Shown piece by piece: positions 2,912 to 9,627 of a DNA stretch of 11,253 nt. Made by a program: the position numbers and the translations under genes. The stretch spans positions 9,707 through 20,959 of the forward strand of contig NZXL01000026.1 of the NCBI GenBank assembly GCA_002697705.1, written 5' to 3'. The stretch is from Methanobacteriota archaeon. Lineage in GTDB: Archaea > Thermoplasmatota > Poseidoniia > Poseidoniales > Poseidoniaceae. Each line of letters starts with the position of its first letter. Positions within the stretch are counted from its first letter, which is position 1. Below the pieces are notes generated by a model, which was not told the DNA's origin, made no database searches, and worked only from the letters and a program-made list of their open reading frames with translations.

Positions 2912-3574
2912 GTGTTTGGACTATTTGTGACGCCAGTCGATGTAGCAGCCACAGTTCGTAAGTGGCTTAGTAGTGAACGTTTGATTGTCAAGGAGCAAGA
3001 AGACCCAAGGGCCGTAGCGCATATTTTGATAAAATATCCGCAAGGTCCTCAAGGGCACATGTTTGCTGTAGTAATTCCTAAGAATAGAGATTTAATTGCA
3101 ATTTCAAGCATGACTAGAGTTGACATGGGTCAACAAAAAGAGATGAAGAACCACATGAAGGAGGATTCTGATGGGTGGTCGGAATGGATTCATGAAGGCC
3201 GACTACAATTAATTCGATCATCTGTAGATTGGGGTATTCACATGGGTCATGAAGGAACTCAAAAGCCAGGTCCTTTACAAGCATTCAATGTAAGCCTACC
3301 AATTTGGTTTGATGGTCTGACCAAAAACGAGATGATGCATGGTTTACGCAGACTGTGGCTTGCCAAGTTGGGACTTATTCACGAGATAAAATATTCTTAT
3401 GGCCCCGGAGTTGGAAAACCAGGTCCTGTTGATGATTGGGCAAAGAAAAAAGAAGCCATGGAATCTCAAGGTGCCAAATCTCCCGATGGTGATGTTGAAA
3501 GCGAACAAATAGAAATCGAATTCGATGAAAAGATGTCATTTGGTTCAAGTTTTGACCCTTCAGAATGGGCATAA
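2912..3574 (+). CDS. DUF2299-like archaeal protein of unknown function
   Basis: A soluble protein of 220 aa without signal peptide or membrane helix. The N-terminal 165 residues look like a compact alpha/beta domain: VRKWLSSERL, then EDPRAVAHILIKYP, HMFAVVIPKNRDLIAI, and IWFDGLTKNEMMHGLRRLWLAK near residues 130-150. From memory, this order (amphipathic helix, a HxxxVVxPK strand, then YDGLTKxxFM and a long helix) resembles the archaeal DUF2299 family, whose function is not established. The rest is a probably disordered tail, glycine/proline-rich then strongly acidic (VESEQIEIEFDE), ending SFDPSEWA. The start is GTG at 2912, 30 bases after the acyltransferase stop; GTG 2927 is an alternative. 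The ATG at 2908 is out of frame and soon meets a stop. The spacing suggests operon membership with the acyltransferase, but this gives no specific role. Confidence 0.72.
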   Translation: MFGLFVTPVDVAATVRKWLSSERLIVKEQEDPRAVAHILIKYPQGPQGHMFAVVIPKNRDLIAISSMTRVDMGQQKEMKNHMKEDSDGWSEWIHEGRLQLIRSSVDWGIHMGHEGTQKPGPLQAFNVSLPIWFDGLTKNEMMHGLRRLWLAKLGLIHEIKYSYGPGVGKPGPVDDWAKKKEAMESQGAKSPDGDVESEQIEIEFDEKMSFGSSFDPSEWA

Positions 3575-3600: not shown

Positions 3601-3661
3601 GTGACCCGAAAGAGTCGCGGTTAAGTATGAAGAGAGAATGGTTTTGTTTATCCTATCTGCC

Positions 3662-3667
3662 AGAGGT
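3662..3667 (+). promoter_or_regulatory. Shine-Dalgarno-like site AGAGGT deciding the ATG at 3674
   Basis: AGAGGT ends 6 bases before ATG 3674. Starting there gives a classical signal peptide (charged MSDKIK, then a hydrophobic stretch), whereas the upstream in-frame ATG at 3638 puts a second hydrophobic patch in front of the charged residues. This favours 3674. Confidence 0.5.
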
Positions 3668-3673
3668 CTATTT

Positions 3674-6600
3674 ATGAGTGATAAAATTAAATCAATGAGC
3701 CTAGTTTCAATAATGCTAATCGCAGCAATGTCTGCTATGGTGATGTCTTCAGTCCCTGTTAATGCTAACACAGTTGTCATAACTGAACCACAACAAATCG
3801 TTGATGGCGGTTCTGCTTCTGATACACAAGCGTGTATTGTTGCAGATAGTGAAGGAAATGCCCACATAATTTGGTCAAGAAATAATCTACACCTGTATTA
3901 CTCTATGATAGCGAGCGATGGAGAGGTTCTAATTGATGCAACTCAAATTACCAATGCAGGAATACACAAAATCTGGCACCCTGATATGGCAATAGATGAT
4001 GACGACAATCTGCATATTGTGTGGACTGATAAGTCAGGAACTCACAAAATTATGTATACTGCAATTTCACCGTTTAAGATTCAACCTTTCAGCGGACAAT
4101 CTAGTGATGACGCATCCTTGACATCAATTGATGACATGGTGGTTTCTCAAAGAGCACAAGATAGAGATTGGCCATCGATCGATGTTGATAGCCAAGGCAA
4201 TGTTCACATTGCATGGGAAGATGAGTTCGATGAATTAGGCCGCTTTTTCAACCAACCACAAATTTACTACTCGATGCTACAACCAGATATGATTGCACAA
4301 GACGCAATCGTTCTTTTCGATGATACTTTACTTACTCCAATCATCGGCCATAAAGGGCACCCAGATATTGTAGTTGATCAAAACGACCAAGTTCAAATTG
4401 CATGGGACGATACCCGTGGAGGAAAAGTTGAACTTGTATTCATAGTAGATACCTCAGGTTCAATGTATACCGAATGGGCCGACATATGTACTGTTATTTA
4501 TGGAGGTAACTTTGCTTCAGGTGGGCAATTCGAAGGAATCAAGCCACTACTGGAAGTTGCTAACATGACAGTGTTTGAAACAATTTATGGTCTCGATGGT
4601 GGATTTGGTTTACCTGGAGCTGCAAGCAGTGGCGATTGTGCAGGATATAATATGAATGCAGGGCCTAGGACCACTCCTCTAAATGAAGGAGACAGTTCTG
4701 GCGGAATACGTTCTCTACAAAATACAATTTACAATGGTAACCCTTACTCTGGTAATTCTGGAGAAGATTGGGGGCCAGGTGCAAACTGGGCTTGTCTTTC
4801 ATGGAAAGACGTCAATGGCAACGTTCCAGGAAACCCTGCAACATCTGCAGACCACAAGTGGAATCCAAACTCTACAAAGATAGTTCTACCAGTTTCCGAT
4901 GAAGGCCCTAAAGATGGAGACCCTTCTCAACAAGCAGATGATATTAGTTCTCTTGATGAGGCTCACGACAACTGTGTAAGAGCAGGTGTTGTACCAATTG
5001 GCCTTTATGGCCAAGGCTATGGTGGTGCAGGAAATATTCAATCACACTTTTTAGACTTGGTAAAATGTCCAAATGGTGTAGTTTCAACTCAAACCAGAAA
5101 TTGCCCCGGTAATGACCCAAATACCAATGCACGTACAGTAAGTGCTGGCGGCCAAGCTTATGAATTCCCATCCGGCAGTGGTGGAGCAGGTGCTATGGCT
5201 TTACTTGTTGAAGCAATGGTTTACATCGCAACAAACAACTCCCGTGAGATATACATGTCAGTATTAGACCCATATGCTAAGATGAACAACGACCCATCTT
5301 GGACTCCAGGCGCTCCTGGGCATACTGTTGTTGGTGGCACATACTATGAGGATACAGGATCCGGCGCTGATGGCCATTTAGTGGTCGTAAACGATACTAG
5401 AGTCACCATCGATGACGCTTACTCATTCCATCCATCAATAGCCGTAGATAATTCAGGAAATACTCACATTGCTTGGATGGACGGCAGAGATTATGGTTTT
5501 GAAAAGTCTACAAATTATGAAGTATATTATACCAAACTAAACCTAGCAAAAGCAGGTGCTTTTGACGGTGCAGAAGATGGTCTTGGAACACAACAGATGA
5601 AGGTGATTGAAGATACTGCCATTTCTAATGTTGAAGGTCTTTCTGGATTAACTTCAGCATACTCTGGGCATTCCATATTCCCTGCAATATTGACAGATAA
5701 ACAAAGCAACGTCCACATATCTTGGGTAGACTCTGGAAATACAAGTGCAGGAGAAGAGGTTCAGTATACTCGTTTGAATCAAACAGATATTTCAGGAGCT
5801 GGTGAGTTAGCACTAGACCCATGGGAGATTATCTCAGTAACATCTTGGGCAAGCAATAAATTAGGTACAGATACCGGAAGTCGGCCAGATTTGGGTATGC
5901 CACCAGCATTTGCTAATGACCTTGGAAGTGGGGCGCACATAGGATGGTCTGACCAGAATAAGTGTAACGATGAACAGAATAACGGAAGATATACGATTTG
6001 TTATTCCCACGTCTTGACAGGTCAAGTCGATGTTGAATTGGATGTAGGAGAAACCTATTACCACGTCATTGAACCTGGTGAACAAACTATTTTCAACATG
6101 ACACTAAACAATTCTACCCCTGGTGATAAGGACCTTGTTGCAGATACATATGGAGTAAATGTATCAGGAGTTCCTCAAAACTGGACAGCAACACTATTCT
6201 TTGCGGACAATCAAACACAGATTTTACCTACAACCCCAATTTTCCTTGAGGGTGGAGAGTTTACTAGATTCTATATTAGAATAAAGGCACCTACAATCTA
6301 TCAAGCGAATGAAGATGAATTAGCCCAAATTGTAGTGACTGCGAAGTCATACAAAGACCCAGCCATACGTTCGGACTTGACTACCTTGACATTGATGGAT
6401 GTTGTTCATGGAATTAGTCTAGATACTTCTCACAGTGTTCAAGACATTGAACAAGGTGGCCAGGCGACGTTCTCAATTACGATCACAAATACAGGTAACG
6501 TGCAAGATAGTTTCTTGTTTTGGGACCCTAACACCTTGGAAGGGCAACAAGAATGGCTTCTACCATTCGGCTGGGAAGTAACCTTCCCAATGCGCGTCGA

Positions 6601-8806
6601 ATTAGACCCTGGAACATCAACTACCAAGATTTTGACAGTTAAGGTTCCAACATCTGAAGACCCAGGTGCTTTCGTGATTTATCTCAAGGGTTGGTCAGAA
6701 GGTGAACCTATCAAATCTGTGGATAAAGGAACTTATGATATTCTCGAATTGGGAGTCTATGTTTCGATAAGGTCTTCAGGAAACATTGTCTTCGAAGCGA
6801 CAGATAGTGAAGCATTTGTCCAAGCAGGAGATCCTAATGATTCATGTCATGAGTATGAAGTACCAGTTACAAAGAATTACGATTCAGGAGACCTAGTATT
6901 TACTTTGCCAGGTGCCCCAGAATCAAGGCCTAGTGAAGTCGATGTCAACACATGGCGCCAAGATAATTGGGATGTATCGGTCGATTTCAGAGATGCCCCC
7001 GGCACCAATGACCCTCTAGGGCAATCAAGACCATGGACAATACCTCCAGGTCAAGATTATGTTAGACACACAGTATATGTCGAAGTTTGTGCACCTGATA
7101 ATGCCAAGGCTGGAATTGGCCCAACAATTATTCTCAAAGCATACCTCGATGGATATCCGAAGATTTCAGATTTCATCAAACTAGATACTACAGTAATTCA
7201 CGAATATAGTTTAGCCGCCTCTACAAATCTATCCACTGACAGAATTATCTCAGTAGAAGGTGCTAATGGTGGAACGGTTTCAGCATATTCTGTATATCCT
7301 GGTGAGAAGATAACATTGCCAACAACGATTACAAATAACGGAAACGGTCCTGACAGATACGACTACCGCTTGGCAACAGTGATTGACCCATCTGGCGTAC
7401 CGGTTAGAAATGGCCATTGGGATATCATTATTCCTCGTGATTCTTTGCAAGAATTATCAAGAGATACATCTCAAACATTCGATGTTTTGATGAATGTACC
7501 GGAGACTGATATCGGTGCAGGTTTGTATACAATTATTTTCCAAACCTACTCTGAAGAAGCATATCCTGATTCTCAAGGAAGGTCGACAAAGCTGAGAGAT
7601 GTTCAAACAATGATGGTTTATGTTAACGAGTTTTATGACATGGAAATAGTAATGGATCCAAGAGTCGACAACCCGATTAAGACTTCAGCACCTGGCAAGA
7701 TTGTCAGTTTCACTGTAAATATTACCAATAATGGAAACGTAGAAGACTGGCCTACTTTGGCAAATCACACTTCTTCACTGCAAGGTAATGACCGTATTTG
7801 GGAAACACTGCCTGGAATGGGACAACTAACCGGTTGGAGCGTTGAGTGGAGAACCGTTAAACAAATCGGTAATGATTTGACAACCGATGAGGCTTGTGTT
7901 GAAGTAGCAGCAATGCCTGGCAAGACATCTGATGAATATTCATCATGGCAAACTGCATTAGAGGAAGCTCAAGACGGTGAAATGTGTGCAGTAACTCCAG
8001 ATGGAACATACATAATGCCAAAGATGGCACCATACCAAACCATTGAGATGGTCGCTGTTGTTAAAATTTCAACAGATGCCAAATTGGATACTAGATATGT
8101 TGGTTTGAAGGTTGTCTCCATAGCAGGAGACATGACTGAAGGAGGAGACTTCGACTCTTCACCATCATGGCAAGGAGATCTACTTGACAGCAATGAATTG
8201 ATTCTTCAACTTCGTTTGAGAGCACCAGACTTGGTAATTAAGGAAATCATCAACCCATCATCCTTTAGTGGCGATATTGATTCTACAATTCCAATTGGAA
8301 TTATCTTACAGAATACTGGTAACACACACGCAACAGACATCGAAATAGTTCTATGTCAATATGATGATGCTAATGAACAAGATATTATTGACGAAATAGA
8401 AAGAAACGGATGTGCAGATGACAGCATAGTAATGCGCCAGGTAGTTGGAGCATTATTGGCCCCAGATGCATCAGAAGACGCACAAGAAGTCGAGATATAC
8501 CTTCTATATCCAGTCGTCGCAGGAAGCAAGGGAATTTACGTTGTAGTAGACCCTATGAATGAGATTGTTGAAGCAAATGAAGATAACAATATCAAAGCAG
8601 TATCTGAACCTTTGGAATCTCCAAGTCCATTCCTAGACGTTGCTGGACAAATAGTTGGTAAAACGGCATTGCCATTTGTTGTAATTCTACTGACCTTGTC
8701 ATTACTAGGTGTTGTATACTTTGTTGGTAAAGGAAGACGTGAAGAAGTCAATAAGAGACTAAGCGAACAATCTTCTTTGATCTCAGTTCTAGAATCCAAA
8801 GAGTGA
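3674..8806 (+). CDS. Giant exported surface protein: seven-repeat propeller with nested VWA domain, Ig-like stalk, C-terminal TM anchor
   Basis: About 1,710 residues from ATG 3674 (1,722 if ATG 3638 is used). Residues 1-31 form a signal peptide, with probable cleavage after VNA. Seven repeats of the pattern hP.IavD..GN.HIaW.D...iYYs.l start near residues 53, 102, 165, 229, 585, 669 and 742, suggesting a seven-bladed beta-propeller. Repeat four is interrupted by a VWA domain (about 252-521) with a full MIDAS set: D259-T-S261-G-S263, Thr333/334 and Asp409. Next come repeated Ig-like domains of NEW3/CARDB type, with TITNTGNVQDSF, TITNNGNGPD and NITNNGNVEDW strands near 928, 1210 and 1341, and a CARDB-like unit from APDLVIKEI (1517) to EIVEANEDNN (about 1630-1640). 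A TM helix (about 1664-1684) and a charged 25-residue tail end the protein. Many N-x-S/T sequons fit a glycosylated exterior. It is probably a metal-dependent surface binding/adhesion protein; the ligand is unknown and no hydrolase active site is recognisable. Confidence 0.85.
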   Translation: MSDKIKSMSLVSIMLIAAMSAMVMSSVPVNANTVVITEPQQIVDGGSASDTQACIVADSEGNAHIIWSRNNLHLYYSMIASDGEVLIDATQITNAGIHKIWHPDMAIDDDDNLHIVWTDKSGTHKIMYTAISPFKIQPFSGQSSDDASLTSIDDMVVSQRAQDRDWPSIDVDSQGNVHIAWEDEFDELGRFFNQPQIYYSMLQPDMIAQDAIVLFDDTLLTPIIGHKGHPDIVVDQNDQVQIAWDDTRGGKVELVFIVDTSGSMYTEWADICTVIYGGNFASGGQFEGIKPLLEVANMTVFETIYGLDGGFGLPGAASSGDCAGYNMNAGPRTTPLNEGDSSGGIRSLQNTIYNGNPYSGNSGEDWGPGANWACLSWKDVNGNVPGNPATSADHKWNPNSTKIVLPVSDEGPKDGDPSQQADDISSLDEAHDNCVRAGVVPIGLYGQGYGGAGNIQSHFLDLVKCPNGVVSTQTRNCPGNDPNTNARTVSAGGQAYEFPSGSGGAGAMALLVEAMVYIATNNSREIYMSVLDPYAKMNNDPSWTPGAPGHTVVGGTYYEDTGSGADGHLVVVNDTRVTIDDAYSFHPSIAVDNSGNTHIAWMDGRDYGFEKSTNYEVYYTKLNLAKAGAFDGAEDGLGTQQMKVIEDTAISNVEGLSGLTSAYSGHSIFPAILTDKQSNVHISWVDSGNTSAGEEVQYTRLNQTDISGAGELALDPWEIISVTSWASNKLGTDTGSRPDLGMPPAFANDLGSGAHIGWSDQNKCNDEQNNGRYTICYSHVLTGQVDVELDVGETYYHVIEPGEQTIFNMTLNNSTPGDKDLVADTYGVNVSGVPQNWTATLFFADNQTQILPTTPIFLEGGEFTRFYIRIKAPTIYQANEDELAQIVVTAKSYKDPAIRSDLTTLTLMDVVHGISLDTSHSVQDIEQGGQATFSITITNTGNVQDSFLFWDPNTLEGQQEWLLPFGWEVTFPMRVELDPGTSTTKILTVKVPTSEDPGAFVIYLKGWSEGEPIKSVDKGTYDILELGVYVSIRSSGNIVFEATDSEAFVQAGDPNDSCHEYEVPVTKNYDSGDLVFTLPGAPESRPSEVDVNTWRQDNWDVSVDFRDAPGTNDPLGQSRPWTIPPGQDYVRHTVYVEVCAPDNAKAGIGPTIILKAYLDGYPKISDFIKLDTTVIHEYSLAASTNLSTDRIISVEGANGGTVSAYSVYPGEKITLPTTITNNGNGPDRYDYRLATVIDPSGVPVRNGHWDIIIPRDSLQELSRDTSQTFDVLMNVPETDIGAGLYTIIFQTYSEEAYPDSQGRSTKLRDVQTMMVYVNEFYDMEIVMDPRVDNPIKTSAPGKIVSFTVNITNNGNVEDWPTLANHTSSLQGNDRIWETLPGMGQLTGWSVEWRTVKQIGNDLTTDEACVEVAAMPGKTSDEYSSWQTALEEAQDGEMCAVTPDGTYIMPKMAPYQTIEMVAVVKISTDAKLDTRYVGLKVVSIAGDMTEGGDFDSSPSWQGDLLDSNELILQLRLRAPDLVIKEIINPSSFSGDIDSTIPIGIILQNTGNTHATDIEIVLCQYDDANEQDIIDEIERNGCADDSIVMRQVVGALLAPDASEDAQEVEIYLLYPVVAGSKGIYVVVDPMNEIVEANEDNNIKAVSEPLESPSPFLDVAGQIVGKTALPFVVILLTLSLLGVVYFVGKGRREEVNKRLSEQSSLISVLESKE
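4421..5240 (+). other. Nested VWA domain with MIDAS motif, inserted in propeller repeat 4
   Basis: This sub-region of the giant gene encodes KVELVFIVDTSGSM at its start and GAGAMALLVEAMVYIA at its end. It has the DxSxS metal site, the downstream TTPL threonine and the SDEG aspartate expected of a functional MIDAS. The insert is about 270 residues, longer than the usual 180-200 for VWA, and holds six cysteines (DIC, GDC, WAC, DNC, VKC, RNC), enough for three disulfides in an exported protein. The flanking residues, AWDDTRGG before and REIYMSVLDP after, are the two halves of one propeller repeat. Confidence 0.75.
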
Positions 8807-8808
8807 AA

Positions 8809-9561
8809 TCATTCTTTAGGTTTATAGTCGCCTAACCACCAGTGTAAACTAGAGTTTTCAACTCCAGCAATAATATGGCCAGCCCTCTGAGAGAGTTGCC
8901 TTTGCAGTCTACTACTGACTTCATCCATCAATTCATTCATCTGCTTCTGTCCGAGTTGAAGCTCTTTACTTAGAGCAGTAAAATCGATACGCTTTGTTGG
9001 CGCTTCAATGATGGAATGAACCATTGCTCTTTGTTCATATATATCGAAATCAGCATCTACAGCAACTGAGATTCTATTTCTAATATGTTGGTGTAATGAA
9101 ATAATAGCATCTCTTTGTGCATCCATATCTTCAAGAATATTATTTAATTCTGCTAGATGTGAAACTCCTTCACCAACAGATATTTTCTTTCTACCACTAA
9201 CAGATTCCGCAACTTTCAAACTATTTTCTGGTAATGATTTCGATAGCCTCATAGGACCTCCTAGGGGTAATTTGCGCTGTTCACAGTGAAATAAGTCGGG
9301 CCCTAGGTCGATACGTAGAGAAATTGATTTTTGGACAGAATAAATAGTTCTGGGAGGTCCACCTTTATCACTTGGAACTTTCATTTTTGCAACAAAATCC
9401 CCTCGTTCTAATTCCTTCAAGTGTTTCATAATGGCTTGCTGACTTACCCCAATTAAATCTGCTAATTGCATTGGGTAGTGAGGCTCTCTTACAAGACGCT
9501 CTAATATTTGCCTACGCACCTTATTTTGAAGAATAGATAACGCAAGGTCCACATCAACCAT
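8809..9561 (-). CDS. ArsR-type winged-helix transcriptional regulator
   Basis: A 250-residue DNA-binding protein. Residues 1-75 form a winged helix: NKVRRQILERLVREPHYPM, then QLADLIGVSQQAIMKHLKELE as the helix-turn-helix with its recognition helix, then a wing ending in GGPPRTIYSVQ. The following ISLRIDLGPDLF is, from memory, a conserved continuation in archaeal regulators of this group. The C-terminal half has a helical, probably coiled-coil segment (LAELNNILEDMDAQRDAIIS) and a possible second HTH (FTALSKELQLGQKQMNELM), suggesting dimerisation or an extra binding surface. No metal-binding cysteine pair is visible, so metal sensing is unlikely. I chose ATG 9561; an in-frame GTG at 9594 adds 11 residues but falls inside an inverted repeat. 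It is last in a three-gene minus-strand cluster and convergent with the giant gene 2 bases away. Target genes are unknown; autoregulation is plausible. Confidence 0.86.
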   Translation of the reverse strand: MVDVDLALSILQNKVRRQILERLVREPHYPMQLADLIGVSQQAIMKHLKELERGDFVAKMKVPSDKGGPPRTIYSVQKSISLRIDLGPDLFHCEQRKLPLGGPMRLSKSLPENSLKVAESVSGRKKISVGEGVSHLAELNNILEDMDAQRDAIISLHQHIRNRISVAVDADFDIYEQRAMVHSIIEAPTKRIDFTALSKELQLGQKQMNELMDEVSSRLQRQLSQRAGHIIAGVENSSLHWWLGDYKPKE

Positions 9562-9592
9562 ACTGCTCAACCTAAGGTTACCTAGATAGTGC

Positions 9593-9627
9593 ACCCTTTT
9601 GAATGCGTCGAAACATCAGAAAAGGGT
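9593..9627. promoter_or_regulatory. Inverted repeat upstream of the ArsR-type gene, possible operator
   Basis: ACCCTTTT (9593-9600) and AAAAGGGT (9620-9627) form perfect 8-base arms around a 19-base spacer, between the regulator start (9561) and the end of the membrane-protein gene (stop at 9616-9618). Placement just upstream of a dimeric winged-helix regulator suggests an operator for autoregulation. A transcript hairpin acting as processing site or terminator is an alternative, though no T-run follows on the minus strand. The function is inference. Confidence 0.4.

Follow-up and report, generated by a model that had tools for sequence, protein, structure and literature searches.

The locus studied here raises the question of how a VWA domain comes to be housed within a single blade of a propeller, and of what it might do there. 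Chordate integrins provide the main known examples of a VWA domain nested in a propeller. The window, that is, the whole stretch of 11,253 nucleotides that was analysed (contig NZXL01000026.1, positions 9,707 to 20,959, assembly GCA_002697705.1), comes from an archaeon of the order Poseidoniales and contains an open reading frame (ORF) at 3638..8806 on the forward (+) strand, encoding a giant protein of 1722 amino acids that is presumably a membrane-anchored surface protein of this order. A possible alternative start, Met13, lies at 3674, and the orthologue matches listed begin mostly at residues 2-15 of the ORF. Our results place the VWA domain between strands B and C of the fourth of seven predicted blades, an architecture that is well supported.

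A VWA domain inside blade four

The original prediction held that a blade repeat is interrupted after TRGG, that a VWA domain comes next, and that the repeat resumes with REIYMSVLDP, and coordinates and letters proved to be as claimed. The interrupted repeat, HPDIVVDQNDQVQIAWDDTRGG, occupies residues 241-262 (HPDIVVDQ begins at residue 241, position 4358; QIAWDD ends at 4411; TRGG follows from 4412), about 273 residues beginning KVELVFIVDTSGSM come after it, and REIYMSVLDP is found at residues 536-545 (5243-5272). The nested VWA domain itself comprises residues 262-534 (4421..5239, +).

Seven repeats are present in the strand list of an AlphaFold2 (AF2) model, whose numbering is converted to ORF residue numbers by adding 36; their grouping into blades is our own assignment. 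In model numbering, blade 1 corresponds to 26-67, blade 2 to 76-136, blade 3 to 141-196, blade 4, in two parts, to 203-222 plus 501-552, blade 5 to 560-625, blade 6, the outer strand of which was undetected, to 643-677, and blade 7 to 721-758. On the DNA, blades 1-3 (AF2 strands 26-196) are encoded at 3821..4333, strands A and B of blade 4 (HPDIVVD...QIAWDD; AF2 strands 203-210 and 216-222) at 4352..4411, its strands C (REIYMSV) and D (501-507 and 546-552) at 5243..5401, and blades 5-7 (560-758) at 5423..6019, all on the + strand. The gaps between strands B and C of blades 1 to 7 measure 3, 4, 12, 278, 12, 8, and 13 residues. Because this gap has 278 residues in blade 4 versus 3-13 in the six others, the insert is located within a blade and not between blades, in agreement with the earlier statements that it fills a single loop between strands of blade four and that the other repeats have short loops at the same place. 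A VWA domain between two complete blades was considered and rejected, since the AF2 strands place the insert within blade 4. By convention, the B-C loops of a propeller are on the same face as its D-A loops.

In a structural search of the model, the propeller aligned end to end with WDR5, CylK, and PLL lectins, the matched chains of which we take to be seven-bladed. From the strand pattern and these end-to-end alignments we infer seven four-stranded blades in a closed ring, with a presumed closing strand at residues 46-48 (3773..3781, +; AF2 strand 10-12), the pairing of which is suggested by comparison with the WDR5 alignment. Neither an unclosed propeller nor a VWA domain between complete blades, the two outcomes named beforehand as contrary to the original prediction, was found, with closure read from strands and alignments. 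Two predicted models with a pLDDT (predicted local distance difference test) of 85-86 had independent structural matches. Pfam gave nothing over its cut-offs on either propeller piece, and sequence searches of the PDB, whether by the whole protein or by the VWA profile of the family, gave 0 matches at E ≤ 1.

All 132 loci checked share the left junction that runs into D.S..M, 131 of them by pattern and one with a diverged flank (L127) by eye. Sixty of these loci were fetched via the VWA domain itself and the rest by whole-protein match, so that the set cannot serve as an unbiased check for missing inserts; the counts pool two genome collections with overlapping species, and the 30 loci listed first had the best scores in the family search and hence are close relatives. 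Two loci titled Deltaproteobacteria (L126) and Rhodobiaceae (L140) have Poseidoniales-like sequence and were counted in the order as presumed mis-binning. As the frame is open over 1722 amino acids and the junction recurs in all 132 loci, chance is excluded.

The insert shows the alternating alpha/beta Rossmann-type fold of VWA domains. Curated VWA models had no match at E < 1 in the window and matched 3 of 23 family members, the best at 0.05; they matched 16 of 19 relatives outside the order at E ≤ 0.1 (best 1.5e-7), and these relatives are linked to the Poseidoniales VWA at 8.6e-39. The claim that the domain bears a metal ion-dependent adhesion site (MIDAS) was upheld in part. A DxSxS motif, DTSGS, was identified by locus pattern and reading of the sequence at residues 271-275 (4448..4462, +), and the presumed MIDAS Asp421, in an SDE motif, is encoded at 4898..4900 (+). 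Of the 132 loci, 131 have DxSGS; all 131 pattern-read loci have the (S/G)DE Asp, and L127 has DTSGS. The one locus without DxSGS is the paralogue L061 (genome G275), whose degenerate site reads DSSTG for DTSGS and which retains the nesting.

In canonical VWA domains the third MIDAS residue is a Thr, and a complete MIDAS is not present in every VWA domain. Glu376 of an E.WGP motif (4763..4765, +) was aligned in one profile alignment (E 1.4e-4) with a Thr of 4rck, which we take to be the MIDAS Thr, and in a CobT alignment the same Glu lies over an Asn. This Glu was found in 23/23 family rows, 19/19 relatives, and 121/121 pattern-matched loci. From these alignments, the MIDAS Thr seems to be missing, with the invariant Glu in its place, and the domain may have a variant metal site that is partly closed from inside.

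Distribution, origin, and conservation

The giant protein was found in 164 of the 170 genomes of its family. Across the order, a search with its first half was positive in 297 of 318 genomes, representing 22 of 22 genera; the other 21 gave no first-half match, and most genomes are incomplete. The VWA profile matched 292 of 339 genomes of the class, all in the order's 22 genera; at E ≤ 0.001 it matched nothing in the class's remaining 21 genomes, which belong to 3 genera. A phylum-wide search detected VWA matches outside the order in two genomes (G408 and G414).

The possibility that some relatives lack the insert, raised together with the original prediction, was not borne out. Five genomes had a first-half match and no VWA match; when they were re-searched, the matches ran into contig ends in three (G090, G313, and G170), one (G166) had a weak generic repeat match, and one (G097) had no match at E ≤ 0.001. 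As all five are explained in this way, limitation of the insert to some relatives was rejected; none of the intact copies seen in genomes of the order lacked the insert. Weak propeller-repeat matches were obtained in 203 of 391 genomes of the phylum, the order included. In 19 phylum genomes that were looked at, D(T/S)SGSM was absent from the repeat-richest frame in 16 pieces of 2.4-3.6 kb, and no uninserted orthologue was demonstrated among the weak propeller-repeat matches; for this reason, an ancestral uninserted state is deduced from the six other blades only. A second giant frame in the same genome as the window (contig C73, 3209 amino acids) has seven weak propeller-repeat matches (E 3e-7 to 0.004) and no VWA match.

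The tree built from 30 VWA domains groups all 11 Poseidoniales rows on a single branch with a support of 100/100. The closest relatives elsewhere are from other Thermoplasmata, Bacillota, Myxococcota, Planctomycetota, and others. The scan covered the best 80 of 313 relatives; in all, 19 relatives were read, with flanks of 150 amino acids before and 120 after the VWA domain for 16 and longer flanks for three, and no propeller repeats were found beside the VWA domain in the flanks read. Because the Poseidoniales VWA domains are one branch and these 19 relatives have no propeller repeats in the flanks read, the insertion into the propeller looks like something that happened once, in the ancestor of the order or earlier.

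Paralogues in family f2 (L061-L070) hold the insert at the same place and are on deep branches of the protein tree, to which a long-branch warning is attached. Three of them (L064, L066, and L070) contain an extra insert of 146-259 residues within the VWA domain, before its last helix, and so present a domain within a domain within a propeller blade; a Pfam search with the whole L064 frame gave no match at E ≤ 0.1. In other Thermoplasmata (L104, L105, L106, and L117), inspection by eye suggests that members of this VWA subfamily interrupt immunoglobulin-like (Ig-like) modules of large proteins. In five Bacillota and Myxococcota loci (L108, L109, L110, L112, and L118), the VWA domain was seen, also by eye, after a CARDB-like region and before a continuation similar in each, and perhaps again splits a beta sandwich. 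A tendency to nest in beta domains may be a general trait of this VWA subfamily.

Mean pairwise identities of the first propeller part, the VWA domain, the second propeller part, and the stalk were, in this order, 71.6, 81.3, 77.8, and 66.6% within family f1; 67.3, 70.4, 68.6, and 62.6% within f2; 54.5, 58.1, 56.0, and 48.7% between f1 and f2; and 31.9, 50.4, 28.8, and 21.1% between orthologues and paralogues. The VWA domain was the most conserved part in 481/595, 166/325, 587/910, and 610/610 pairs, respectively.

The giant gene is preceded by a DUF2299 gene (2912-3574) and followed by a convergent gene for an ArsR-type regulator (8809-9594), and in related genomes this gene order is mostly conserved. 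Among 60 neighbourhood loci with the giant gene, which were fetched by the VWA domain and of which several are too short to show neighbours, the former was upstream in 55 (in L184 it is not adjacent) and the latter downstream in 48.

A proposed docking head and alternative explanations

The designation as a giant surface protein is consistent with both ends of the ORF. A hydrophobic stretch at residues 21-39 (3698..3754, +; hydropathy peak 2.01) is a presumed signal peptide, and a putative C-terminal transmembrane stretch (8669..8725, +; hydropathy peak 2.58) is followed by a basic tail; anchoring is presumed. Between the propeller and this stretch, Pfam identified a stalk of Ig-like modules (6023..8617, +), including CARDB at residues 1529-1653. 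The NCBIfam model choice_anch_T scored 68.9 against the protein, slightly under its cut-off of 70.

We propose that this is an anchored core surface protein in which a seven-bladed propeller near the N-terminus, with a prokaryotic VWA domain inserted between strands B and C of its fourth blade, would be held away from the membrane by the stalk of Ig-like modules. The propeller would serve as a rigid platform, and the VWA domain would dock, via a MIDAS-type metal site (DxSxS plus Asp, apparently with Glu for Thr), to a conserved partner in the cell's own envelope or to a conserved glycan. The gene is conserved and its presumed binding domain is on average the least-changing part, and therefore a conserved partner is favoured over varied outside ligands; sequence conservation thus suggests, without proving, docking of this kind. 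We consider the proposal as a whole about equally likely to hold or to fail.

Several observations weigh against it. The apparent loss of the MIDAS Thr is one of them, as the internal Glu may shut off the metal site and leave it with a structural role. Within f2 the VWA domain leads in conservation in only 166 of 325 pairs (70.4% versus 68.6% for the second propeller half) and between f1 and f2 in 587 of 910, so that its lead in these comparisons is modest, and strong VWA conservation can also reflect fold constraint. The gene is not strictly single-copy, as some f2 genomes (G171, G277, and G256) have more than one full-length copy besides paralogues. No partner gene was identified, and no search for a partnering subunit was made. 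The VWA pilin PilB is reported to bind fibronectin and fibrinogen without need of its metal site (PMC8179133).

A bolder version of the docking proposal, which we regard as doubtful, is that archaea evolved their own integrin-alpha-like head, in which a prokaryotic VWA domain was spliced into a blade in or before the Poseidoniales ancestor and became an indispensable metal-dependent docking head, its Glu-for-Thr site mimicking the ligand-bound state.

The protein could instead be an adhesin for outside surfaces, with a VWA domain that depends on metal to bind polymers of algae or particles and so attaches cells to food particles. Adhesins directed at outside ligands tend to vary and to occur patchily, whereas this gene is kept in nearly all genomes of the order and its putative binding domain is on average the most conserved part, and we judge this explanation possible but rather unlikely. 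It draws on the adhesin-like combination of VWA domain, propeller, stalk, and presumed anchor, on the binding of Mg, Mn, and several human proteins by the bacterial VWA pilin PilB (PMC8179133), and on the discussion of adhesion and particle association of this archaeal group (PMC6461757, PMC6741140).

Less probable still is a purely structural insert, in which the invariant Glu closes the metal site and the VWA domain only stabilises or shields the propeller, or aids lattice assembly, with no separate ligand. The order-wide conservation, the Glu aligned with a Thr of 4rck, and its presence in every family row, relative, and pattern-matched locus would fit such a role. However, relatives outside the order share this Glu in other contexts, which makes it a mark of the VWA subfamily and not of a role in the propeller, and paralogue L061 has lost DxSxS yet kept the nesting. 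Finally, that the nesting is an artefact of draft assemblies or of a computed and mispredicted fold, for which the weak Foldseek result of the insert alone (4 matches at E ≤ 0.001, TM (template modelling score) about 0.4) might speak, is extremely improbable given the same junction in loci of many assemblies and the two models with independent structural matches.

We found no report of this protein in the literature on Poseidoniales or marine group II, VWA domains, adhesion, and propeller insertion, in which subscription journals were thinly covered; it is not mentioned in the available portions of two papers on Poseidoniales and adhesion (PMC6461757, PMC6741140). According to abstracts of 2018-2019, no planktonic archaea are more abundant in surface waters than this group, which has no cultured representatives. 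The analysis points to one conserved surface protein of this abundant, uncultured group that could be labelled, captured, or studied structurally, and the Glu-for-Thr site is testable on one soluble domain.

Comparison with known systems

PilY1 of type IV pili has a VWA domain and a propeller, and its VWA domain is not known to be nested in the propeller. PilB resembles the archaeal protein in having a VWA domain with a MIDAS, but there it is the C-terminal module of a pilin and not nested in a propeller (PMC8179133). Bap1 and RbmC, biofilm adhesins of Vibrio cholerae, combine an adhesive beta-propeller, closed by a Velcro-type strand, with built-in further binding modules; they differ in having eight blades and beta-prism domains, and the available part of the source does not mention VWA (PMC10102183). 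The propeller shares its kind of repeat with the PDIAV motif-containing lipoprotein propellers (NCBIfam NF053835; E 2.2e-14), although the match scored 53.7, under the cut-off of 90, and the model has only 458 positions. The VWA domain shares descent (E 8.6e-39) and the same invariant Glu with a prokaryotic subfamily characterised by E.WGP and SDE motifs, for which no curated name was found; in these relatives the VWA domain either is close to the N-terminus or has Ig-like or CARDB-like modules around it, and Poseidoniales members have extra loops.

The closest parallel in logic is the integrin alpha-I domain, as the original prediction had proposed. In both cases a domain of VWA fold is spliced into a seven-bladed propeller on a large surface protein, which in the archaeal case is presumably anchored. 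The analogy does not extend to position, because alpha-I is inserted between blades 2 and 3 (PMC3192720, PMC4237329, PMC12422189), and the archaeal insert separates strands B and C within blade 4; the archaeal MIDAS, in addition, apparently has Glu for Thr. A Pfam search for FG-GAP in the whole protein and both propeller pieces gave no match at E < 1, although strongly diverged repeats could escape it. In a Foldseek search with the whole model, the top match was integrin alpha-E (9p97; E 5.4e-9; TM 0.26 by query and 0.29 by target), and integrins were not among the 50 rows of the structural search that gave WDR5, CylK, and PLL lectins. We do not take the alpha-E match as kinship, and a TM of 0.26 does not support a shared spatial arrangement. 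Kinship with integrins was rejected on account of the missing FG-GAP match, the different position, and the prokaryotic VWA relatives. The presumption of an independent origin found support in the same relatives, the nearest found of which are prokaryotic and without propeller repeats in the flanks read, and in the missing FG-GAP match; the nested arrangement and that of animal integrins probably have separate origins. The archaeal head, if it works as we suppose, would work like an alpha-I head without being a member of the alpha-I family. A separately evolved, order-wide archaeal case at another propeller position would show that this solution is reachable more than once, and would offer a natural comparison for how a propeller-borne VWA domain is held and possibly switched.
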